Made by a program: the position numbers and the translations under genes
Notes under the pieces: generated by a model
Database searches by the model: none
What the model was told of the DNA's origin: nothing
The model's input: the letters and a program-made list of their open reading frames with translations, nothing else
Source: an uncultured Erysipelotrichaceae bacterium
GTDB taxonomy: Bacteria > Bacillota_I > Bacilli_A > Erysipelotrichales > Erysipelotrichaceae
Reading direction: 5' to 3'
Length of the DNA stretch: 64,000 nt
Assembly: GCA_947167125.1 (NCBI GenBank)
Contig: CAMVGT010000001.1
Coordinates: 62,001 to 126,000 of the forward strand
In this document: one piece after another, positions 52,736 through 61,914 of the stretch
How the letters are laid out: each line of letters starts with the position of its first letter
Numbering within the stretch: position 1 is the stretch's first letter

Positions 52736-52812
52736 CGGAATGTAGCGCAGCTTGGTAGCGCACTTCGTTAGGGACGAAGGGGTCGCAGGTTCAAATCCTG
52801 TCATTCCGACCA
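52736..52812 (+). tRNA. tRNA-Pro (AGG), integration site
   Basis: 77 bases with CCA encoded. Acceptor CGGAATG / CATTCCG, anticodon stem CTTCG / CGAAG, loop TTAGGGA giving anticodon AGG (Pro). The 3' 46 bases plus one are repeated at 61868-61914, which shows that this tRNA is the attachment site of the element that follows. The gene stays intact because the element restores its 3' end. Confidence 0.95.
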
Positions 52813-52813
52813 T
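52767..52813. repeat. attL, 47-bp direct repeat
   Basis: Identical to 61868-61914. It spans from the anticodon loop to the 3' CCA of tRNA-Pro, the usual core for tyrosine integrases that use tRNA genes. Confidence 0.93.
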
Positions 52814-52814
52814 C

Positions 52815-52850
52815 AGTCAGTGTTTGTCGATAAACACTGACTTTTTTTGA
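52815..52850. terminator. Terminator just inside the element
   Basis: AGTCAGTGTTT / AAACACTGACT with a 6-base loop and a seven-T run. It serves tRNA-Pro in the integrated state. The chromosome's own tRNA terminator is now at 61917-61948, beyond attR. Confidence 0.88.
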
Positions 52851-52854
52851 TGTC

Positions 52855-53943
52855 TTAACTCCGATTGAGAAGATTTTGAGAAGATTTGTTGAGAAGATTT
52901 GTGATTTCAGGATGCTTTTCATCCAACAGATGAGTGTATGTTTTCAGAGTAATATTGATATCTGAATGTCCAAGCCTTTTACTGACTGCCACAATGTTCA
53001 TTCCGTTGTTAATAAGGAATGTTGCATGAGAGTGTCTGAAGTCATGAATCCGAATATTTTTCACTCCGCTTCTTCTGATAGCACTGTTTTTTCTCTGCTG
53101 AACACAAGTCTCTGGAAACGGACGACTTGTTCCAAACATGAATGAATCTTCTGAGAATCCATCTTCATTTTCAACTGTTTCCTTATATTCCAACAGAAAT
53201 TGATTAAGAGCTTCATCGATATAAACTGTTCTGATACTCGACAAACTCTTAGGCATCTTGATTTCATACGGCCCTTTTGTAGTTTTCTTAGTGCACGATT
53301 TTGAAATACTCAGTTTGCCATCAGAGAAATCAGCCCAAGTTAAGGCGAGAGCTTCCCCAAGCCTCATTCCTGTGTTAAAGAGCGTGAAGTAAAGTGCCTT
53401 ATAACCAATGCCATCCACGCATTCCATAAACTTCATAAACTCTTCGTATGTCCAAATATTTGACTCACGTGCTTTACTCGCAATAACTTCATCGTTTGTT
53501 TTTTTGAATGTTTTAATTGCAGCTGCAGGATTTGTTTCAATGTAATGATGTGTAATTGCGTAATCCATAACCTCTTTCAATCCTGTGATACATCTGTTTT
53601 TTAATGAAGTAGCATACTTCAGGCGTCCAACAGAAATCCTATAGTTTTCACAGTCTGCAGTTGAAACAGTATTGATTGGCTTATTCACCATAACTTTTTT
53701 CATTACAAGCCTGACGTTTTCTTCATATTTAACGAACGATGTATACTGAACTTCTTCTTTTTTTATGGTCAGATATTCATCCATTACATCAAATAAGTAT
53801 CGTGAACACTCTCCATTTTTAGCTGTCAGTATTAATTCAGCTTCATAATTAATTGCATCCCTTTTGTATTTGAAACCTCTTTTTGTCTGATTCTGATATT
53901 TAACATACCAAGTCTTGGTGTGTGGATCTTTATGCACTGACAT
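52855..53943 (-). CDS. int: Tyrosine recombinase (integrase)
   Basis: 362 residues in the phage/ICE integrase style. The N-terminal arm-type DNA-binding part (about 1-55) is followed by a SAM-like core-binding domain and the catalytic domain: Arg in T-G-M-R-L-G-E-A, H-x-x-R in H-D-F-R-H-S-H, and the Tyr in L-K-T-Y-T-H-L. Tryptophans are coded by TGG and the stop is TAA, so it is neutral with respect to the code change seen downstream. Its 3' end contains three arm-like repeats. It is read toward attL, as is usual. Confidence 0.93.
   Translation of the reverse strand: MSVHKDPHTKTWYVKYQNQTKRGFKYKRDAINYEAELILTAKNGECSRYLFDVMDEYLTIKKEEVQYTSFVKYEENVRLVMKKVMVNKPINTVSTADCENYRISVGRLKYATSLKNRCITGLKEVMDYAITHHYIETNPAAAIKTFKKTNDEVIASKARESNIWTYEEFMKFMECVDGIGYKALYFTLFNTGMRLGEALALTWADFSDGKLSISKSCTKKTTKGPYEIKMPKSLSSIRTVYIDEALNQFLLEYKETVENEDGFSEDSFMFGTSRPFPETCVQQRKNSAIRRSGVKNIRIHDFRHSHATFLINNGMNIVAVSKRLGHSDINITLKTYTHLLDEKHPEITNLLNKSSQNLLNRS
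52865..52899. repeat. Arm-type repeats at the left end
   Basis: Three copies of TTGAGAAGATT at 52865, 52876 and 52889, overlapping the integrase 3' coding end. Two further copies (one with G as first base) lie near attR at 61770 and 61782. Their placement beside both att cores suits integrase arm-binding sites. Confidence 0.65.
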
Positions 53944-54296
53944 TCTTTGCCATCCTTTCCAAATCAGTGCATAACCGTCTTTGTTATTGCTGCTCTTTCA
54001 CAATAACTGCTGCTTAACAACTTTTAACAACTATCCAACAGATCATAACCAACAGTCAGATCATGCTATCTGCGGCGACCATGATGCGCCATTACTCTTC
54101 TCTTGCATCGCAGTCTCATAATGATGATCAGAATCTGTCAAATATTAGTATATTTTAAGCGAAATCAATGTCAACTATCGTTTATGATATTTGGTTTATA
54201 AGTATAAGATATATACTTTAAGTGTAAAGAGGAAAGGTAATAAAAACCAACCTCAAGTCATAGAAGAAGCCAAAGTGCTCGGAAAGGAAAAAGAAT
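53944..54296. promoter_or_regulatory. Control region between integrase and recoded operon
   Basis: No gene is called in these 350 bases. CTGCTTAACAACTTTTAACAAC at 54010-54031 (shown here only by its ends in further text) recurs inverted at 61675-61696. A palindrome, AAGTATA-N5-TATACTT, lies at 54200-54218, within an A/T-rich stretch that probably holds the promoter of the rightward operon. No tRNA-like fold, and so no TGA-reading tRNA, could be seen here. Confidence 0.5.
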
Positions 54297-54716
54297 ATGA
54301 CAAACACAGTAAAAGTTATCGGCAACAACATTATCATCACAAAAGCATTCCTGAAGAATGCCCAGGTCTTCGGCACAGCTGAATACTACGCGCTCAGGAC
54401 AGTCAAGGCTGAAAACCCTAATGCTACCGTTCGGACAAAGGCCATCAAAAAGAATCCCGATAAGGAAACCTTCAAAAATGTCTCCTACGAAAACATGGAA
54501 TACTACATCTCTTTACAGCCCAACAAAGCCACTCATATGGCACATTACAAAATTGTCAGGGAAAGAAGCAAAATCCAGAAGTCGCCATATAAGTATGTTG
54601 CAAAATGGTTTGTCGACACATTCCCCGATTTCAGAAAAGCCCCTGTCTTTGCAACTTCTGCGGAAACCGCAGTGGAATACACAACCTCTACAGAAAGAAC
54701 AGCTTACGAAGCATAA
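54297..54716 (+). CDS. Element protein of unknown function, first paralogue
   Basis: 139 residues; GGAAAGG lies upstream of the ATG. The protein is basic and shares a layout with the next gene: a start strand, an (A)QV-G-(T/S)-A-x-Y helix near residue 25, a Y-x-N-M-x-(R)Y segment, and P-Y-x-Y-V-x-x-W-F-x-x-T-F-P near the C-terminus. The pair therefore arose by duplication. The family is not one I recognise. Trp is coded by TGG and the stop is TAA, so it can be translated under either code. It opens the recoded operon. Confidence 0.7.
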   Translation: MTNTVKVIGNNIIITKAFLKNAQVFGTAEYYALRTVKAENPNATVRTKAIKKNPDKETFKNVSYENMEYYISLQPNKATHMAHYKIVRERSKIQKSPYKYVAKWFVDTFPDFRKAPVFATSAETAVEYTTSTERTAYEA

Positions 54717-54739
54717 GAAAGGTAAAAAGGGAGAACAAT

Positions 54740-55216
54740 ATGAGAAACTATAGAATCGATTTCACGCATAACACAATCGTCGTAGATTACAAATTTGATA
54801 AGGCAGCTCAGGTAATTGGTTCCGCAGCATATGACGACCTGAGAAGAATTACAGCCGATTTCCCTTCAATGACCGTAAGAGTTGCATCTCACAGAGAACA
54901 GAAAAGCCCCCACTATACTAAACGTCTCAATTATAAAAACATGATTAGATACATGATGACGTTCGAGAATCGCGATGAACTTCTGGCTGAATTCAGAACC
55001 ATTCAGGAACAGTCTCACAATGCACCTTGTCCTTATGCATATGTAAGAACATGGTTTATGACAACATTTCCCAACTACAATCAGCCCGTTTGTAGAGTTA
55101 AACCCAAGCCATCTTTCAAATCCATTAATGAGGAGACGGTTAACTCCTCGAAGTCTATGCACTCCAATGCAAATAATTTGGACACTTTTGACAAAGAAAT
55201 CAGTCAGAATTTTTAA
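54740..55216 (+). CDS. Element protein of unknown function, second paralogue
   Basis: 158 residues from ATG 54740 with AAGGGAG upstream. It resembles the preceding gene along its first 115 residues (QVIGSAAYDDLR, then Y-K-N-M-I-R-Y and P-Y-A-Y-V-R-T-W-F-M-T-T-F-P) and adds a Ser/Asn-rich tail. Only TGG is used for Trp, and the stop is TAA. Spacing of 23 bases to the previous gene and 26 to the next suggests one operon. Confidence 0.7.
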   Translation: MRNYRIDFTHNTIVVDYKFDKAAQVIGSAAYDDLRRITADFPSMTVRVASHREQKSPHYTKRLNYKNMIRYMMTFENRDELLAEFRTIQEQSHNAPCPYAYVRTWFMTTFPNYNQPVCRVKPKPSFKSINEETVNSSKSMHSNANNLDTFDKEISQNF

Positions 55217-55242
55217 AAACAATAGAAGGAGAAATAAAGATT

Positions 55243-55692
55243 ATGGAAAATATTGAATTTTGATTAGATCTCAAAAGAGGAAGACAGGCCGAAGTGCTTG
55301 TCGCAAATGCATTCAGAATAATGGGCTACGATGTCATGGATATGACAAAGAACCCCGTATTCTGAAAAAAAGACGTGGACTTACTTATCTGAGACCACGA
55401 CAAAACAAAATACATGTTTGAAATCAAAGCGGATTGAAACATGCATAAAACAGGTAATGTAGTGCTGGAGCTTACAAGCAAAACAGGATCGCAAGGTTGA
55501 TTCCGGACATCTGAGGCTACCCACTTCGCTATCTGTGATATGCAGAACCGCATATGTTATATTGCGCGTGCCAGCGAATTAAGAGAGTATGCGCAGCAGC
55601 ATCCAGATCTGCCGCAGATCCGACTGAATGACTGTGAGTGTTTACTCGTAAATACCAATGAATGTCCCCTATTTCAGAAGATCCATATTTAG
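55243..55692 (+). CDS. PD-(D/E)XK-type nuclease with five in-frame TGA (Trp) codons
   Basis: Read with TGA as Trp this is a 149-residue protein ending in TAG, with AGAAGGAGA 10 bases before the ATG. TGA falls at codons 7, 41, 50, 65 and 86, and no TGG is used. The reading gives G-R-Q-A-E-V-L-V-A-N-A-F near the start, then K-K-D-V-D-L-L-I-W and M-F-E-I-K-A-D-W. This is the D...ExK core of PD-(D/E)XK nucleases (Asp46, Glu60, Lys62, helix Glu17). It resembles Holliday-junction-resolvase-like or restriction-type enzymes. In the standard code it would stop after six residues. No TAA, TAG or frameshift interrupts it. Confidence 0.75.
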
Positions 55693-55700
55693 GAGGCAGT

Positions 55701-55922
55701 ATGACAAAAGAGGAAAACAGAAAGCTTGCAGATGAAATCAGGACGATTATTAAGCAGCTCCGGGCAAAAGGTTATACTTACAAAATCTTTTACACTGTAG
55801 TTAACTACAGCCCCACCAACTGATACAACTTCATGAGAAACTACAACATGTCTGACGATGATTTATTGGCTTTGAAAAAGTTTATAGAAGAAGAATACAG
55901 GATCAAAATAGAAAGGTGGTAA
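55701..55922 (+). CDS. Small helical protein with one in-frame TGA (Trp) codon
   Basis: 73 residues when TGA at 55821-55823 is read as Trp41 (S-P-T-N-W-Y-N-F-M-R-N-Y-N). AGGAGG lies 5 bases upstream of the ATG, and the gene begins 8 bases after the nuclease stop. The last codon before TAA is TGG, so both Trp codons occur in the same gene. The sequence looks like an all-helical DNA-binding protein (K-Q-L-R-A-K-G-Y-T-Y-K-I-F), but no family is clear. Confidence 0.65.
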
Positions 55923-55924
55923 TT

Positions 55925-56344
55925 ATGCCGACAACAGTCCCCAACCAGAAGACAATCACTATTAGTAAAGAACCCTGTGATAAAGATAACTACTATGCAA
56001 AAATCAACCTTAATGCATTACAGCTGGCATTAAAAGCACTCACCCCGGCACAATTCAAGGTCTGGATCTATTTTGCAAAGAACCAGAACAGCCATACCTT
56101 CGCACTGTCGCCGCAAGCTGCTGAGGAATGGGGAAACGCACGCACCACATTTAACAGAACAATTACCACATTCATTGACGAAGGTTATTTGATTGGCAAA
56201 GAAGGCAGTAATCGCTATACCTTCTATGAGATCCCCAAAGAAAAAGGAACATTTATCCCCTACCATGGAAAACCAAAAGAAGAAGAAAAAGGACGGGACT
56301 TCTCCTGATCCCCTGCGCCGACCATTATGGACACGCAAGAATAA
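55925..56344 (+). CDS. Winged-helix replication- or regulation-type protein, possible TGA read-through tail
   Basis: The ATG at 55925 follows the previous stop by 2 bases, with AAAGGTGG as its site. Residues 35-100 look like a winged helix (L-K-A-L-T-P-A-Q-F-K-V-W-I-Y-F, R-T-T-F-N-R-T-I-T-T-F-I-D-E-G-Y-L), as in small Firmicute plasmid initiators or transcription factors. In the standard code it ends at TGA 56306-56308 (127 residues). With TGA as Trp it gains W-S-P-A-P-T-I-M-D-T-Q-E and ends in TAA at 56344 (139 residues). Given its neighbours the longer form may be the native one. Confidence 0.65.
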
Positions 56345-56417
56345 TGGCCGGTTTTATTTATGCTGCGTTATCATAAATTATGTCCATGAAGGATAGAGAA
56401 ATATAATAAATAATATG

Positions 56418-56522
56418 AAAAAGCCTTCGGCTTTTTATACATAACATGACTATTCAAATCCCTTCGGGCTTTGAATAGTAGAAAAAACTCTTTAAGTCCC
56501 TTCGGGCCTTAAAGAGTTTTTT
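56418..56522 (+). terminator. Three tandem hairpins sharing a CCTTCGG apex
   Basis: Three hairpins stand in a row: 56418-56436 (AAAAAGCC-TTC-GGCTTTTT), 56449-56479 (stem ACTATTCAAA plus CCC, loop TTC) and 56482-56522 (a 15-bp stem plus CCC, loop TTC, T-run). The second and third also share the same single T/C mismatch below the apex. They separate the first five cargo genes from the next two. They may be terminators, but a role as single-strand replication origin is also possible. Confidence 0.7.
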
Positions 56523-56558
56523 AGCGCCAAGAGAGAAAATCCAAAGGAGGAAATGAAG

Positions 56559-56747
56559 ATGGATATAAACACAACATACTCGATCCAAAAGGGTTGATTA
56601 CCCGAAAGATATAGAAATCAGATAGACCAGACATTCAGCATTCAAGAGAACTACATATCAGAAAAAAATCGTGCGTATAGCGAAGCAATTGAAGAACCGG
56701 CAAAAGAAACTGTTGTCAATATAGAGACAACATATCAGGAGATCTAA
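56559..56747 (+). CDS. Small acidic protein with one in-frame TGA (Trp) codon
   Basis: 62 residues from ATG 56559, which has AAAGGAGG 8 bases upstream. TGA at 56595-56597 encodes Trp13 in Q-K-G-W-L-P-E-R-Y-R-N-Q. The rest is Glu-rich (Y-S-E-A-I-E-E-P-A-K-E-T). The stop is TAA. In the standard code only a 12-residue peptide would be made. No family is recognised. Confidence 0.6.
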
Positions 56748-56749
56748 CT

Positions 56750-56908
56750 ATGGCAAAAAAGAAAAAGAAGAAAAGCCAGGACTCAAAACGAAAGATTACC
56801 AAAAGAAACAGCAGCGTTCTTGAATATGAAATTATGAAGATGATGGAATCGTGCTTGAAGACAGCAGTCAACACAGCATTAGATAGTGTCTTCAAAGACT
56901 GACAGTAA
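56750..56908 (+). CDS. Small Lys-rich protein, possible TGA read-through end
   Basis: The ATG at 56750 is 2 bases after the previous TAA, and the previous gene's end supplies AGGAGAT as binding site. It starts M-A-K-K-K-K-K-K and continues with a helical segment (V-L-E-Y-E-I-M-K-M-M-E-S). The standard reading stops at TGA 56900-56902 (50 residues). With TGA as Trp it becomes F-K-D-W-Q and stops at TAA 56908 (52 residues). The gene ends 7 bases before the 100-bp recombinase repeat. Confidence 0.55.
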
Positions 56909-56915
56909 TATGCTC

Positions 56916-57018
56916 TATCCAGCCTACAAGGCCGGCGCAATCAATAAAACAGAACTTGCGAGGATCTGTGCGTTGTCAAGAAGTTCTGTTTATAAATACT
57001 TGGATCTTTTGGAGTAAA
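56916..57018 (+). pseudogene. 3' fragment of a serine recombinase gene, TAA-ended copy
   Basis: Bases 56916-57015 are identical to 58567-58666, the last 100 bases of the serine recombinase gene. They encode the C-terminal HTH (Y-K-A-G-A-I-N-K-T-E-L-A-R-I-C-A-L-S-R-S). This copy has no start and ends in TAA, whereas the full gene ends in TGA. It is followed by its own terminator-like stem. It marks the border between recoded and standard-code DNA. Confidence 0.88.
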
Positions 57019-57076
57019 ACGGTTCCGTCTTTCTGGATCTGATCACCTTTGATCGGCTGGGAGGCGGTGCCGTTTT
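57016..57076 (+). terminator. Terminator-like stem behind the recombinase fragment
   Basis: AAAACGGTTCCG pairs with CGGTGCCGTTTT (two central mismatches) across a 37-base loop. It would suit the end of the ancestral TAA-ended recombinase gene. The rest of 57077-57332 is more GC-rich than its surroundings and shows no supported gene. Confidence 0.5.
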
Positions 57077-57332
57077 AAACTTGCGGAAAACCATGATGGT
57101 CCTTCCCGAAATATATCCCCGGTGTCCGCAAAAAGGTGTTTGCGGTTTCACCAACAGAAAAAGCCCTTTTCAGGGCAGAAAATGCGTGTTTATAAGGCTG
57201 GCTAAACCGTCCGTAAAAGCAAATGATTTAAATACGCCCGATAAACGCCGTGTTTACCGTTAGTCTCGTGGCAAATCGAATTTTTGTGAAATTTTGCACA
57301 AGGCAAAAAAAGATAGGCAATCGATGGATCGC

Positions 57333-57611
57333 CTATTTTTGTGTATTTTCCCGAATCTTCGCCAACCATTCATTGGTAGCTTCATCTTCTACGTATTCCA
57401 TTATATCTGCTGGTTGACACTCCAGAAACGCACAAATTCTGTTAAGGCTATCATAAGAAAGCCCTGTTCCACCATGGCGCATCTTTTGAAGTGTAGCTTC
57501 GCTTACTATCTTGTGTTTTCTAATTTCTGTAGTTTTAACATTCTTCGCTTTCATCAGAGCAAAGAACTTATCGTACTTGATCATATGTTTTGGCTGCTTC
57601 GGGGCCCTCAA
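57333..57611 (-). CDS. XRE-family HTH regulator
   Basis: About 92 residues. The Cro/CI-type helix-turn-helix spans residues 18-75 (F-F-A-L-M-K-A-K-N-V-K-T-T-E-I-R-K, then S-E-A-T-L-Q-K-M-R and L-N-R-I-C-A-F-L-E-C-Q-P-A-D-I). A TTG at 57611 has GGAGGAGAGG 9 bases upstream and is preferred; an internal ATG at 57584 would give the core domain only. The gene diverges from 57777, and four operator copies lie between them, so it is very probably the repressor of both. Confidence 0.8.
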   Translation of the reverse strand: MRAPKQPKHMIKYDKFFALMKAKNVKTTEIRKHKIVSEATLQKMRHGGTGLSYDSLNRICAFLECQPADIMEYVEDEATNEWLAKIRENTQK

Positions 57612-57636
57612 AGTCAGGTCCCTCTCCTCCAATTAT

Positions 57637-57746
57637 ATAATACTCTATTATAAGAGTAAAGTCAAGCCATTTTGAGCAAAAAACTCTAAAATAAGTGTAA
57701 AATACTCTAATTATAGTGTTGACAACTCTAATATTAGTGTTATAAT
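57637..57746. promoter_or_regulatory. Divergent promoters with four operator copies
   Basis: Four 16-bp near-palindromes of the type ACTCTA-N4-TAGTGT lie at 57642, 57683, 57704 and 57725. The rightward promoter is TTGACA (57719) - 16 bases - TATAAT (57741), and the fourth operator fills its spacer exactly. The leftward promoter is TTGACT (57665-57660) - 17 bases - TATTAT (57642-57637), with the first operator in its spacer. This is a compact two-way switch for the XRE regulator. Confidence 0.82.
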
Positions 57747-57776
57747 ATAGTTGTAAAGATAAAGGAGACAAAGAAC

Positions 57777-58055
57777 ATGACAAACGCACAGATTATCAAT
57801 CAGATCAGAGAACTCAACGAATACGAAGCACTCCTCGAAGAAGTCAAAGCCGCAGCTGATGCAATCAAGGATTCCATCAAGGCAGAGATGGAAGCAAGAG
57901 ACACTGAAGAACTCACAGTCGGCATGTATACAGTACGCTGGACTTCAGTCCTCTCCAACAGATTCGATACAGTTAACTTCAAGAAGTCTTATGGAGAGAT
58001 CTACAAGGCTTACACGAAGCAGGTTTACTCCAAGAGGTTCACAGTTAGCTGCTGA
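57777..58055 (+). CDS. Small coiled-coil element protein
   Basis: 92 residues with AAAGGAG 9 bases before the ATG. The first half is a charged coiled coil (I-R-E-L-N-E-Y-E-A-L-L-E-E-V-K-A-A-A-D), the second strand-rich (M-Y-T-V-R-W-T-S-V-L). The shape resembles small phage proteins that wrap a nuclease or single-strand-binding partner, but I do not recognise the family. Trp is TGG and the stop is TGA, and reading through would give a scrambled tail, so the standard code applies here. It is controlled by the operator array and leads into the recombinase. Confidence 0.7.
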   Translation: MTNAQIINQIRELNEYEALLEEVKAAADAIKDSIKAEMEARDTEELTVGMYTVRWTSVLSNRFDTVNFKKSYGEIYKAYTKQVYSKRFTVSC

Positions 58056-58080
58056 GCCTCTTGGCTAAGGAGGTTAGCCA

Positions 58081-58668
58081 ATGACAGTTTACGGCTATGC
58101 AAGATGTAGCACCAATGAAGACAAACAAGATATTAATCGTCAGGTGCGCGAACTCAAGGCGGCCGGCGCAGAAGAGATCTTCTTAGAATATGAACACGGA
58201 GACGCTGCCGTTAAGCAACAGCTTACGGCGCTGCTGGCGGCAGCGGCACCCGGATCGACCATTCTGGTTCTGGAGATATCCAGACTTGCCAGAAGCACAA
58301 AGCAGCTGTGCGATATCATTGAGATCGTGAAGGAGAAAAAACTGTGCCTGAAGGTTGTTGGATCTATTACAGTAGACTGCACGTCAGGTGTTCTGGATCC
58401 TATGACGAACGCATTTGTCCAGATGTCAGGCGTGTTTGCGGAATTAGAATTACGGATTATAAGAGAACGTGTCCGTAGTGGTATGGCTAATGCCAAAGCG
58501 AAAGGCGCAGCTATCGGCAGACCCAAAACAACAAAAGACGACATACCTGCCGTCTTCTATAAACATTATCCAGCCTACAAGGCCGGCGCAATCAATAAAA
58601 CAGAACTTGCGAGGATCTGTGCGTTGTCAAGAAGTTCTGTTTATAAATACTTGGATCTTTTGGAGTGA
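58081..58668 (+). CDS. Serine recombinase (resolvase/invertase family)
   Basis: 195 residues. The catalytic Ser is in Y-A-R-C-S-T near residue 9, Q-x-x-x-L-follow-up and the R-L-A-R-S motif near 65 complete the active site, and the long E helix (E-L-E-L-R-I-I-R-E-R) is typical. The C-terminal 45 residues form an HTH (with I-G-R-P before it). Size and layout are those of plasmid resolvases and Hin-like invertases, not large integrases. AAGGAGG precedes the ATG and the stop is TGA. Its last 100 coding bases are repeated at 56916-57015. Confidence 0.92.
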   Translation: MTVYGYARCSTNEDKQDINRQVRELKAAGAEEIFLEYEHGDAAVKQQLTALLAAAAPGSTILVLEISRLARSTKQLCDIIEIVKEKKLCLKVVGSITVDCTSGVLDPMTNAFVQMSGVFAELELRIIRERVRSGMANAKAKGAAIGRPKTTKDDIPAVFYKHYPAYKAGAINKTELARICALSRSSVYKYLDLLE

Positions 58669-58691
58669 GCTAAACACAATCTCCACTATGA

Positions 58692-59201
58692 TTATTCATC
58701 GACCTTTGAAGATACAGAGCCACTAACACTTACAGGACTGTATTGAACTTTCAAGAATTCATCAAACAACGCTATATCGGGACTAATGCTTATCTCACAG
58801 CTTCCGCTCGCATTACCTTCATTATCGAGGGTAATACTCACTGTTTTGGTTTCTGACTTAGCATATGTTCCCGCACCAATCCCATATTGTTGTCCGGCCT
58901 TTTTCGCAGGATAATACGTTAAAATGATATCCAAGTCGATTGTTGCATCATAGAACTGATACATTGAAGACTGCGATTTAATATCATATTTAACTACATA
59001 ATTACTGTATCCAGTCGTCTTCTTTTCGCCTTTATATGATGTCCCAGTTCCGCTATAGTCGCCATATAAAACAAGGTATTCACTAATATTATCAGTGGTC
59101 AACTCTGTGCTATTCGTCTTCCCGCTATTTGTGCCATTCGAACTGCACCCCGCAGAAAAAACAAGGCAAATCACACATAAAAGAAATACAAATTTTTTCA
59201 T
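58692..59201 (-). CDS. Lipoprotein of the element
   Basis: 169 residues from ATG 59201; a GTG three codons upstream is closer to the AAGGAGA site and is also possible. The signal ends in the lipobox F-S-A-G-C. The mature protein has alternating strands (I-D-L-D-I-I-L-T-Y-Y, T-K-T-V-S-I-T-L-D) and Ser/Thr/Gly-rich loops, suggesting a beta-sandwich. The family is unknown. It is convergent with the recombinase gene and lies downstream of two SHOCT proteins. Confidence 0.75.
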   Translation of the reverse strand: MKKFVFLLCVICLVFSAGCSSNGTNSGKTNSTELTTDNISEYLVLYGDYSGTGTSYKGEKKTTGYSNYVVKYDIKSQSSMYQFYDATIDLDIILTYYPAKKAGQQYGIGAGTYAKSETKTVSITLDNEGNASGSCEISISPDIALFDEFLKVQYSPVSVSGSVSSKVDE

Positions 59202-59222
59202 ATCAATCACACTTTCTCCTTA

Positions 59223-59819
59223 TCAATAATCCTTAAGTTCTTTTGATAGTTTCTTGTTTATTTTATCTATATGCAGCGGGTCGTAATCAGAGCCAAGACA
59301 GGCAGAGCTGTTGCTTTCGAGAATATACCCCTCCTTGCCGATGAAATAACAACTTGTCGACCTGACCCCAAGAGCATTTTCTGCAGAAATATTAGCAAAC
59401 ATTGTATCTTCCACAACGGTTCCATTTACTAATTTTACAGTTGATGGAAATTTGAAGTTCTTAGCTGCTTTTACCATCAAATCATAAGCAACTTTATCGC
59501 TTCCAGATAATGTATTCATGTTAATGAAAATCGCCAAAAGAATTACAGCAACGACACAAATGCCTGCAATAAGGGCTTTACTAATCCGTATTGAAGGAGT
59601 TTTCTTTTTTTGACTTGTAATCTCTTCTGGCTGTTGCGAGAGAAGAACAGCCTTTTTTTGGTTAAATTCCTCCTCCGTCAAAATTCCATCTTTATAAAGT
59701 TGATGATATTTGTTGATTTCATCAGCAGCAGAAATTGACATATTGTCTGTTGATTCAGACAATTTCTGCTTAACACTATCAGTGTCTTTTGTTTCTAACA
59801 ATTTGTTATCTTCCGACAT
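59223..59819 (-). CDS. SHOCT-domain membrane protein
   Basis: 198 residues. A SHOCT motif (E-I-N-K-Y-H-Q-L-Y-K-D-G-I-L-T-E-E-E-F-N-Q-K) lies at about 35-58, a single membrane helix at 80-103, and the outer C-terminal domain has strand-like segments with two cysteines. SHOCT motifs are thought to mediate oligomerisation. The gene precedes the lipoprotein by 13 bases. Confidence 0.75.
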   Translation of the reverse strand: MSEDNKLLETKDTDSVKQKLSESTDNMSISAADEINKYHQLYKDGILTEEEFNQKKAVLLSQQPEEITSQKKKTPSIRISKALIAGICVVAVILLAIFINMNTLSGSDKVAYDLMVKAAKNFKFPSTVKLVNGTVVEDTMFANISAENALGVRSTSCYFIGKEGYILESNSSACLGSDYDPLHIDKINKKLSKELKDY

Positions 59820-59845
59820 TTATGCCTCCTTTGATCTCAGGATTG

Positions 59846-60127
59846 TCATTTGAGTAAATCAGCTTTTTTTCTGTCAAACTCTGCTTGAGTAATTACCCCG
59901 TCATCAAGAAGCGCCTTATATTTTGACAATTCATCAGCTGCGCTTATTCCTTTCGGAACCACTGGGGCATTTTTATCAGGGATTAAATTTACATGTATAA
60001 TTGCAACAATAAATAGCATCCACCCATAAAACCACCACAGTCCAAAACTATAACCTTTATTCTTTGCAATGTTTGCGGGTATCAAGCCTAATCCTGCAGC
60101 AACTAACAGTGTAATAAATAATTCCAT
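59846..60127 (-). CDS. Small SHOCT-domain membrane protein
   Basis: 93 residues with two membrane helices (about 4-22 and 31-51) and a C-terminal SHOCT motif (E-L-S-K-Y-K-A-L-L-D-D-G-V-I-T-Q-A-E-F). It is the first gene of a three-gene leftward unit (two SHOCT proteins and a lipoprotein), which together look like a surface-exposed module. Confidence 0.75.
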   Translation of the reverse strand: MELFITLLVAAGLGLIPANIAKNKGYSFGLWWFYGWMLFIVAIIHVNLIPDKNAPVVPKGISAADELSKYKALLDDGVITQAEFDRKKADLLK

Positions 60128-60208
60128 ACTATTATTTTCCTCCTGCCTTTAGATGTGCTTACATTTTTCAGTATACCAAAATGTAACTACATTCTCAATA
60201 ATTGAGGC

Positions 60209-60412
60209 ATGAAAATCAGCTATGCACCATTGTGGAAAACCATGGCTGAAAGAAACATCAGTACCTATCGTTTAATAAAGGATTATGAAATCAGCGCCAG
60301 AACGATAAACAATTTAAAGCACGATGTTTCTATCACCATGAATACCTTATGTAAATTGTGTGAGATTCTTTCATGCACCCCGAACGATATAGTTGAATTC
60401 ATCAAAGACTAA
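60209..60412 (+). CDS. Cro/CI-type HTH regulator
   Basis: 67 residues, almost entirely a helix-turn-helix (M-A-E-R-N-I-S-T-Y-R-L-I-K-D-Y-E-I-S, then T-I-N-N-L-K-H, ending C-T-P-N-D-I-V-E-F). It is of the YozG/XRE minimal type. It diverges from the SHOCT gene across 80 bases and probably controls that unit. Confidence 0.82.
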   Translation: MKISYAPLWKTMAERNISTYRLIKDYEISARTINNLKHDVSITMNTLCKLCEILSCTPNDIVEFIKD

Positions 60413-60503
60413 TAATCATTGAATTATAAATGCAGGATTATCTGATTCTGTGTTTTTTTATACAATACAAGTATGAAGTGATGCTTTTAGGAGGCTTATG
60501 CGC

Positions 60504-61667
60504 ATGTCCAACACGGCCGCCGCAGGTGGAAAAAGACCAAATCAAACATATAAATCGTTGATGGTTTTTTATATTCTTCTCAAAATGACCGATAAGGACC
60601 ATCCGATGGAAACCACACGGATCAAAGAAATTCTTTCTTCTTTTGGGATCCAAGCCGAAAACTTATCAATCCAAAGAGATATAAAAAACCTCAGATATCT
60701 TTTGGATGGTGAAGAGTATCAGGAAGAAGACTTACAAGATATTCTCTTTGAAATTCTGAATGATGAATTTGAATATGAATATGACGAAGAATTAACTACA
60801 AAACTATTGGAATTGGATTATAAGATTTCTTACGATGCACGTATCAATAATATGAGCGGTACAAGAGGATTTAAGATGGCTAAACGGCCATATAATACAA
60901 ATGACCTCTGGCTGCTGATTGAAGCCGTAAACGGCCTTAAATCGATCTCTGAGGACACATCTGATCATCTCAAGAAAATTATCCTGTCGTTAGCTAATAT
61001 TTTCGAATTGCAATCGTTATCTATTGATACCTATGTTCCAAATAGAATTGAATCCGCAAGGGACATGATTCTTGTTAACATTCCACGAATTAACGTTGCA
61101 ATCAGAAATAATAAACAAATTAGCTTTGATTATCTGCGTTATCAGTTTGTGAATAAGAAGATCGAACAAAAACCAAGTAAATCAAGAAGAACAGTATCCC
61201 CTATCCAACTGATCTATAACGAAGGATTGTATTATTTGATGTGCCTTGTCAGTTCAAGTGCTGGCAGTAAACCAAGAAGACTTTTATATAGAGTGGATAA
61301 AATGGTTAATATCAGGCAAGCTGAAGAGGATCGGATTGAAGAGGTTTTCACAGAAGAATTGGATCTCGAATCATTCTCGAAACGTGCATTCAATATGTTC
61401 CAAGGCAGGAAAACAAAAATAAAGATCTTATTTGATGATGGCCTTTTGGATACAATGACAGAACGCTTTGACATAAAAGATCCTGATATCAGATATGCAA
61501 AACATGATGATACACACTTTACAGTCTATGCTCCGATAGAAGTCAGTGACCAATTCTTCTCTTGGATCTGCGGATTCAGAAAAAAGGCAAGAATCTTATC
61601 TCCTGCCCATGTTGTGAATGATTTTAAAGACTACCTTTCAGATGTCATGGAAACATATTCAAATTAG
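60504..61667 (+). CDS. WYL-domain transcriptional regulator
   Basis: 387 residues from ATG 60504, which has AGGAGG 9 bases upstream; ATG 60498 is too close to the site. An N-terminal winged HTH (about 15-75) is followed by a WYL domain at about 190-270 (S-F-D-Y-L-R-Y...V-S-P-I-Q-L-I-Y-N-E-G-L-Y-Y-L-M) and a C-terminal WCX-like extension. WYL regulators often bind nucleic-acid ligands and control defence or mobile-element genes. It ends close to attR and is the last gene of the element. Confidence 0.88.
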   Translation: MSNTAAAGGKRPNQTYKSLMVFYILLKMTDKDHPMETTRIKEILSSFGIQAENLSIQRDIKNLRYLLDGEEYQEEDLQDILFEILNDEFEYEYDEELTTKLLELDYKISYDARINNMSGTRGFKMAKRPYNTNDLWLLIEAVNGLKSISEDTSDHLKKIILSLANIFELQSLSIDTYVPNRIESARDMILVNIPRINVAIRNNKQISFDYLRYQFVNKKIEQKPSKSRRTVSPIQLIYNEGLYYLMCLVSSSAGSKPRRLLYRVDKMVNIRQAEEDRIEEVFTEELDLESFSKRAFNMFQGRKTKIKILFDDGLLDTMTERFDIKDPDIRYAKHDDTHFTVYAPIEVSDQFFSWICGFRKKARILSPAHVVNDFKDYLSDVMETYSN

Positions 61668-61674
61668 CCAAAAA

Positions 61675-61862
61675 GTTGTTAGAAGTTGTTAAACAGCAAT
61701 CATTGAGAAGAATTGGTATTTGTCAGCAATGAATAACACAGCTATACACTGAATAATATTGATTTCTGAGTGAGAAGATTATTGAGAAGATTTTGTTAAA
61801 AATCAGGTGCGCTATCGGTAGCGCTGCCCTTCAGAAATCCCGTTGTTACGGGATTTCTGAAG
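61675..61862. promoter_or_regulatory. Right-end recombination region
   Basis: This gene-free end holds an inverted copy (61675-61696) of the TTAACAAC repeats found at 54010. It also has two arm-type GAGAAGATT repeats (61770, 61782), a 6-bp stem GCGCTA / TAGCGC (61809-61824), and a perfect 14-bp stem CTTCAGAAATCCCG with a 6-base loop (61829-61862). The last abuts the attR core. These are suitable for integrase and excisionase binding. Confidence 0.6.
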
Positions 61863-61867
61863 ACTGA

Positions 61868-61914
61868 GTTAGGGACGAAGGGGTCGCAGGTTCAAATCCT
61901 GTCATTCCGACCAT
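61868..61914. repeat. attR, 47-bp direct repeat
   Basis: Identical to 52767-52813 at the 3' end of tRNA-Pro. It marks the right boundary of the element. Confidence 0.93.

Follow-up and report, generated by a model that had tools for sequence, protein, structure and literature searches.

A nuclease-led operon with tryptophan spelled as TGA in standard-code Erysipelotrichaceae: a candidate stop-codon lock on satellite-like elements

Introduction

Stop-codon-recoded phages, in which TAG is read as glutamine or TGA as tryptophan with the help of suppressor tRNAs, have been described, and gating of late genes has been proposed as the role of recoding (PMC10879173, PMC11210395). The loci considered here are similar to these phages in that in-frame stop codons stand for glutamine or tryptophan in a standard-code host, the recoding being gene-specific and the recoded genes lying beside standard-code ones. 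Unlike in the phages, the recoded genes are carried by an integrated element of 9 kb or a plasmid of 7 kb; structural genes were not recognised on either, no suppressor tRNA was found on the elements, and the key would have to come from outside. TGA also encodes tryptophan in the Mollicutes (code 4); however, the genus studied here keeps RF2, the tRNA-Trp with the CCA anticodon and TGA as the stop in about half of the genes.

Known phage satellites are induced by helper proteins. Satellites of the PICI type are 7-20 kb long, att-flanked, and carry an integrase and genes of regulation and replication, with no structural genes (PMC13376191). The element described below resembles them in its size, the attachment site at a tRNA gene, the integrase, the C1-type regulator and the DnaD-like gene. 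It differs in the packaging part: a small terminase is found in the related TAG-interrupted plasmids, whereas on the element itself neither a small terminase nor another packaging gene could be recognised. In the open-licence papers searched we found no genetic-code lock, nor any description of elements other than phages whose genes are stop-locked and which lack a suppressor.

The window analysed here is a stretch of 64,000 nucleotides from an uncultured Erysipelotrichaceae bacterium. An earlier note, made from the letters of this stretch, had pointed to a nuclease gene on an integrated element that uses TGA for tryptophan, and had interpreted it as a product of recent cross-code transfer or as a gene silent until TGA is suppressed.

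Results

A nuclease gene without TGG

The frame at 55243-55692 on the forward strand yields 149 residues when translated with table 4, and is uninterrupted only if TGA is sense. It contains TGA at codons 7, 41, 50, 65 and 86, no TGG, and neither TAA nor TAG before the terminal TAG (55690-55692), exactly as the earlier note had counted. As far as the sequence tells, tryptophan in this gene is always spelled as a codon that the host reads as stop.

Two homologues were found in the same genus, one in genome G021 (61% identity, four TGA, no TGG) and one in genome G106 (64% identity, three TGA, no TGG), making 12 TGA and no TGG among the tryptophan codons of the three copies. TGA is the sole in-frame stop in all of them, with no TAA, TAG or frameshift. 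The copies are saturated at synonymous sites (pS 0.71-0.92) versus a pN of 0.22-0.27. Since pN is far below pS over the whole frame, the comparison shows the full-length nuclease to be under purifying selection. Since the synonymous sites are saturated, the uniform use of TGA at the 12 tryptophan codons looks maintained and not accidentally inherited; the alignment thus shows retention of TGA in place of TGG across divergent elements. Decay of a pseudogene was ruled out by the same low pN and by the absence of TAA, TAG and frameshifts in the three copies.

No homologue beyond these three was present among 316 genomes of the order, and among 392 genomes of the phylum the only matches were weak ones, in the very small genomes of two members of the class. 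A search of IMG/VR returned one homologue, on the phage contig L026; a DNA-level search of phages and plasmids returned none. The phage copy (35-41% identity) is in the standard code and lies near the same DnaD-like gene, upstream of the terminase, in the replication-to-terminase region of the phage. It has TGG at both invariant tryptophan sites, and a more distant plasmid homologue, considered below, has TGG at W86 (G-W-F). Because TGG stands at these invariant sites, the alignment, which the earlier note had proposed as a check on its assignment, shows TGA to encode tryptophan in the nuclease gene. The other TGA columns are mostly Tyr, Phe, Leu or His in relatives.

Two other meanings of TGA were rejected. 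Taking all the columns together, the relatives have Trp, Tyr, Phe, Leu, His, Thr or Ser and never Cys, which argues against a selenoprotein, where TGA would stand at Cys-like sites. Tyrosine, which occupies several of the columns in relatives, does not agree with TGG at both invariant sites of the phage homologue and at one site of the plasmid homologue, nor with the lack of TGG in the gene.

Fold and catalytic residues of the nuclease

All five homologues, the phage and plasmid ones included, have E17, D46, E60 and K62 in common. The AF2 model of the read-through protein (mean pLDDT 86) matched best, among solved structures, the homing endonuclease I-Ssp6803I (2ost; VIA-align Z 11.3, rmsd 2.9, 120 aligned residues), followed by the Hjc resolvase (Z 10.5, rmsd 2.5, 102 aligned), with restriction and SPARDA nuclease domains ranking lower. 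The PD-(D/E)XK pattern claimed from the letters was therefore upheld both by the invariant residues and by the fold. In the profile search suggested together with that claim, no curated family was matched above its cut-off by sequence profiles; the top structural matches are PD-(D/E)XK enzymes. The nuclease shares with I-Ssp6803I and the Hjc Holliday junction resolvases a common fold and the conserved E, D, E-x-K pattern; it differs from them in sequence (10-17% identity) and in the spelling of its tryptophans as TGA. The best explanation is that the product would be a functional PD-(D/E)XK nuclease, with the fold closest to I-Ssp6803I and Hjc-type Holliday junction resolvases.

The integrated element and its relatives

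The nuclease gene resides on a 9.1 kb element (52767-61914; Table 1) bounded by a 47-bp direct repeat of the 3' part of a tRNA-Pro gene, in agreement with the earlier note, which had placed it on such an element within a standard-code Firmicute chromosome. The element falls within the 7-20 kb range, is att-flanked, has its own integrase, and combines genes of regulation and replication with no recognised structural genes: among the ORFs scanned, nothing matched a capsid, portal or tail gene, and for two small ORFs the comparison was with PADLOC only.

Table 1. Features of the element and of the nuclease-led operon (window coordinates).
Feature	Coordinates	Strand	Evidence and remarks
attL, 3' part of tRNA-Pro(AGG)	52767..52813	+	47-bp direct repeat with 61868-61914
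Tyrosine integrase	52855..53943	-	phrog_1, E 2.5e-60
Gene of unassigned function, one TGG, TAA stop	54297..54716	+	no family match
Apparent paralogue of the 54297-54716 gene	54740..55216	+	no convincing family match
Predicted PD-(D/E)XK nuclease, TGA-coded Trp, TAG stop	55243..55692	+	TGA at 55261-55263, 55363-55365, 55390-55392, 55435-55437, 55498-55500
Small HTH-like gene, in-frame TGA (55821-55823) and one TGG	55701..55922	+	conserved in G021 and G106; weak DUF7726 similarity
DnaD-like helicase-loader gene, two TGG; terminal TGA, then in-frame TAA at 56342-56344	55925..56308	+	phrog_186, E 4.3e-6
MDINTT gene, early in-frame TGA (56595-56597)	56559..56747	+	69% identical in G106, same TGA
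Lys-rich small gene, end TGA-CAG-TAA	56750..56908	+	TGA-X-TAA in 3/3 elements
Cro/C1-type regulator	57333..57632	-	HTH_26, E 7.1e-14
ORF92, uses TGG, TGA stop in all three elements	57777..58055	+	phrog_6244, E 4.5e-14
Serine recombinase, TGA stop	58081..58668	+	conserved in G021 and G106
Accessory region: lipoprotein-like gene, two short-tail-motif genes, second HTH gene, WYL regulator (60498-61667)	58692..61667		
attR, copy of tRNA-Pro 3' part	61868..61914	+	47-bp repeat

A sister element in G106 is 8.9 kb long and bounded by a 16-bp repeat at a tRNA-Val gene. The operon common to the three loci comprises the nuclease, HTH-like, DnaD-like, MDINTT and Lys-rich genes, and is followed in all three by a recombinase fragment, the C1-type regulator, ORF92 and the serine recombinase. 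The cassette of regulator, ORF92 and recombinase in the window is enclosed by a direct repeat of about 100 bp (56916-57015 and about 58567-58666), which corresponds to the 3' end of the serine recombinase gene. The same arrangement is seen in G021 and G106 and points to either site-specific insertion or a cassette that can be switched.

Several further observations concern the variable parts. Each element has its own cargo in the stretch from the Lys-rich gene to the recombinase cassette (contigs L008/L009 in G106, L003/L004 in G021), and the cargo proteins of the G106 and G021 elements (195 aa and about 220 aa) have no PADLOC match. Type I restriction genes adjoin the G021 module. Upstream of the nuclease, the products of the two genes of unassigned function look paralogous (...KWFVDTFPDF and ...RTWFMTTFPNY).

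Recoding is limited to the nuclease-led operon

In-frame TGA extends to the neighbouring genes of the operon, which the earlier note had not described, as it had not the 9.1 kb element with its 47-bp att repeat or the TAG-interrupted relatives. The G021 counterpart of the MDINTT gene has TGA at codon 8, and an early TGA is thus found in 3/3 elements; the G021 site is Tyr in standard-code plasmid relatives. The TGA-X-TAA end of the Lys-rich gene, also present in 3/3 elements, has to be compared with TAA or TAG at this position in 2/138 TGA-ended host genes, and the terminal TGA site is Phe in standard-code plasmid relatives; this TGA probably encodes tryptophan as well.

The distribution of codons is uneven between genes. 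The nuclease copies have 12 TGA and 0 TGG as tryptophan codons, and the DnaD-like genes next to them, 1 TGA and 6 TGG (Fisher p 2.6e-4), the single TGA belonging to the G106 copy. TGA stops are found in 0/11 operon genes versus 138/294 host genes (p 0.0013), and TAG stops, in 6/11 versus 21/294 (p 9e-5), the eleven operon genes excluding the window DnaD-like gene, whose TGA stands 12 codons before TAA; all these tests count related copies as independent in spite of their common ancestry, which is made tolerable by the synonymous saturation and leaves the p-values inexact. In the adjacent cassette of regulator, ORF92 and recombinase, TGA stops occur in 5/9 genes.

Recoding over the whole element was not observed, as TGA ends ORF92 in 3/3 elements and other cassette genes. 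When about 463 kb of the genome were scanned heuristically, the matches were mainly adjacent genes split by TGA stops, with no obvious further multi-TGA gene. Judged from codon and stop usage, these comparisons show recoding to be limited to the nuclease-led operon, with TGA used as a stop elsewhere on the element and in the host.

Host code and the search for a suppressor

TGA is the commonest stop of the host, ending 23/47 long ORFs in the window and 138/294 genes in the genome sample of about 463 kb; the earlier statement that the surrounding chromosome uses TGA as stop was thus correct. The prfB gene (RF2) is present in 30/30 genomes of the genus, and the host tRNA-Trp has the CCA anticodon. 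Host-wide recoding was ruled out by the TGA stop usage and RF2. Named relatives in the genus are MAGs labelled 'Solobacterium sp.' (sheep duodenum) and 'uncultured Erysipelotrichaceae'.

A pattern search combined with ARAGORN revealed no tRNA(UCA) in the genus, where the genomes are incomplete MAGs and the pattern may miss unusual tRNAs; about half of the second set of matches was checked, and the checked ones were not tRNAs. ARAGORN and Rfam detected no suppressor tRNA(UCA) on the window element or on contigs L003 and L008. TGA is an ordinary stop in the prophages noticed in this genus. A resident code-4 prophage as a suppressor source was rejected, the candidate terminase TGAs being ordinary stops (at the gene end in G021, between neighbouring genes in G034). 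Phage contigs with a tRNA(UCA) resembling tRNA-Trp do exist in IMG/VR (L105, L112, L095); L112 and L095 have more open frame when TGA is taken as sense, and one of the tRNA(UCA) contigs presumably comes from cow rumen, judging by its sample identifier.

TAG-interrupted plasmids from the rat gut

A plasmid relative first surfaced as a weak match to the nuclease. Plasmid pRGI00117 (HG796263.1, L160; 7,167 bp), named so in a study of the rat-caecum mobilome (PMC3913684), encodes a nuclease homologue with four in-frame TAG (hhalign probability 98.3%, E 1.5e-14). The adjoining small terminase gene has two TAG and matches PHROG with E 6.7e-29 if TAG is read as Gln; further genes of this plasmid are interrupted by TAG too. 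A second plasmid, pRGI00100 (HG796260.1, L161), carries a terminase 64% identical to that of pRGI00117, also with a TAG, as well as a helicase gene in which TAG occurs five times, once in TIE-TAG-VLGRIRGD. We take this last TAG to be the position of the Gln expected in helicase motif VI.

The modules of the two plasmids contain 21 TAG and 43 CAA/CAG, versus 0 and 44, respectively, in the core genes (replication etc.; p 3.6e-6). GIY-YIG genes of these plasmids are likewise interrupted by in-frame TAG, and the Rep3 genes are in the standard code. The terminase and the nuclease are annotated in GenBank as short fragments, and neither stop codons nor terminases come up in the source paper (PMC3913684).

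Relatives of two operon genes are found in the standard code, without the lock, on pRGI00069 and pRGI00071. Small plasmids L162 (HG796257.1) and L163 (HG796256.1) have standard-code genes that look as if the MDINTT and Lys-rich genes had been fused into one, and this resemblance points to a kinship of the plasmids with the rumen elements. The TAG-interrupted terminase/nuclease plasmids look like a parallel case for phages with TAG = Gln.

Discussion

The observations strongly support, at the level of sequence, an operon-specific stop-codon lock maintained by selection. We infer that the key is a suppressor tRNA provided by a recoded phage. In the resting cell, the nuclease-led operon would be translationally locked, the ribosome halting after six nuclease codons. 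Infection by a phage with TGA = Trp would supply a suppressor tRNA-Trp(UCA), unlocking the nuclease and its partners, and the element would be active only beside its putative helper, the genetic code itself serving as the helper sensor. The unlocked nuclease might then process or cut replicating DNA, either that of the element or that of the helper. Silence of the gene until TGA is suppressed, as proposed in the earlier note, is plausible on this evidence. We hold it to be rather probable that satellite-like elements keep their phage-dependent genes code-locked until a recoded phage brings in its suppressor tRNA. The wider statement, that the genetic code acts as a lock and a means of helper recognition for parasitic elements, we regard as an even bet; such elements would spell the genes that depend on the exploited phage in the code of that phage (TGA = Trp for the rumen Erysipelotrichaceae, TAG = Gln for the rat-gut plasmids) and have no suppressor, so that the helper's suppressor tRNA would be the inducer.

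The serious rival to the satellite reading is defence, although we consider it unlikely. The nuclease could be an abortive-infection or anti-phage effector whose translation depends on the suppressor tRNA of a code-switching phage and which then destroys phage or host DNA, to the benefit of the host and the resident element and not of a satellite cycle. The evidence for the lock serves this explanation equally well; the modelled fold is also close to the nuclease domains of the SPARDA defence complex, and three to five TGA would reduce the leak to near zero, as a toxic effector would need. However, there is no PADLOC match, the phage homologue sits in a replication-to-terminase region, and the co-locked DnaD-like gene (one TGA, in G106), as well as the small terminase and helicase of the plasmids, fit parasitism better. 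Taken as a set, the locked genes, i.e. the resolvase-like nuclease and the small genes of DNA-binding type, together with the plasmid small terminase and helicase, suit a satellite better than a pure defence gene.

Alternatively, no key might be needed, if the host tRNA-Trp(CCA) read UGA at a few per cent and a trace of the nuclease were enough, TGA then keeping the level very low. UGA is indeed read as tryptophan at about 6% in B. subtilis (PMC6316719), but at 6% per codon, a value from B. subtilis, the full-length product would amount to about 2e-4 (three TGA) down to 8e-7 (five TGA), and the operon-wide avoidance of TGA stops suggests efficient decoding of TGA in the relevant state. Constitutive leakage is thus very unlikely in our judgement.

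Recent cross-code transfer, the other half of the earlier interpretation, did not survive the comparison, in contrast to the tryptophan assignment, the nuclease and the integrated element. There are three divergent versions of the operon (61-64% identical), all in one genus, with saturated synonymous sites and TGA kept throughout, hence the nuclease-led operon is old and maintained. Phages and bacteria with TGA = Trp that could be donors exist (PMC11210395), yet an imported operon idling in these hosts would hardly have kept a conserved protein free of TAA, TAG and frameshifts in all three copies. Nor does import agree with the mixture of TGG and TGA stops within the same elements, or with the lack of a code-4 homologue beyond the weak matches in the two very small genomes; we therefore consider it highly improbable. 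The weakest possibility, barely credible to us, is that the elements work in another host with TGA = Trp and merely pass through these genomes: mobile elements may have wide host ranges, but every copy is inserted in the chromosome of a member of one genus, at a tRNA gene or elsewhere, and the TGA stops of the recombinase cassette would be read through in a code-4 host.

Returning to the satellite reading, helper recognition by the genetic code would be a new principle if the link to the helper is demonstrated. Annotation pipelines break stop-coded genes, as exemplified by the fragments of the plasmid terminase and nuclease in public records. The lock model would offer a trigger consisting of a single tRNA, and a handle on the helpers of recoded elements. 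As to why some phages switch the code in standard-code hosts, elements that lack any suppressor and yet keep stop-coded genes under selection imply that other mobile elements of the cell may sense code switching and take advantage of it.
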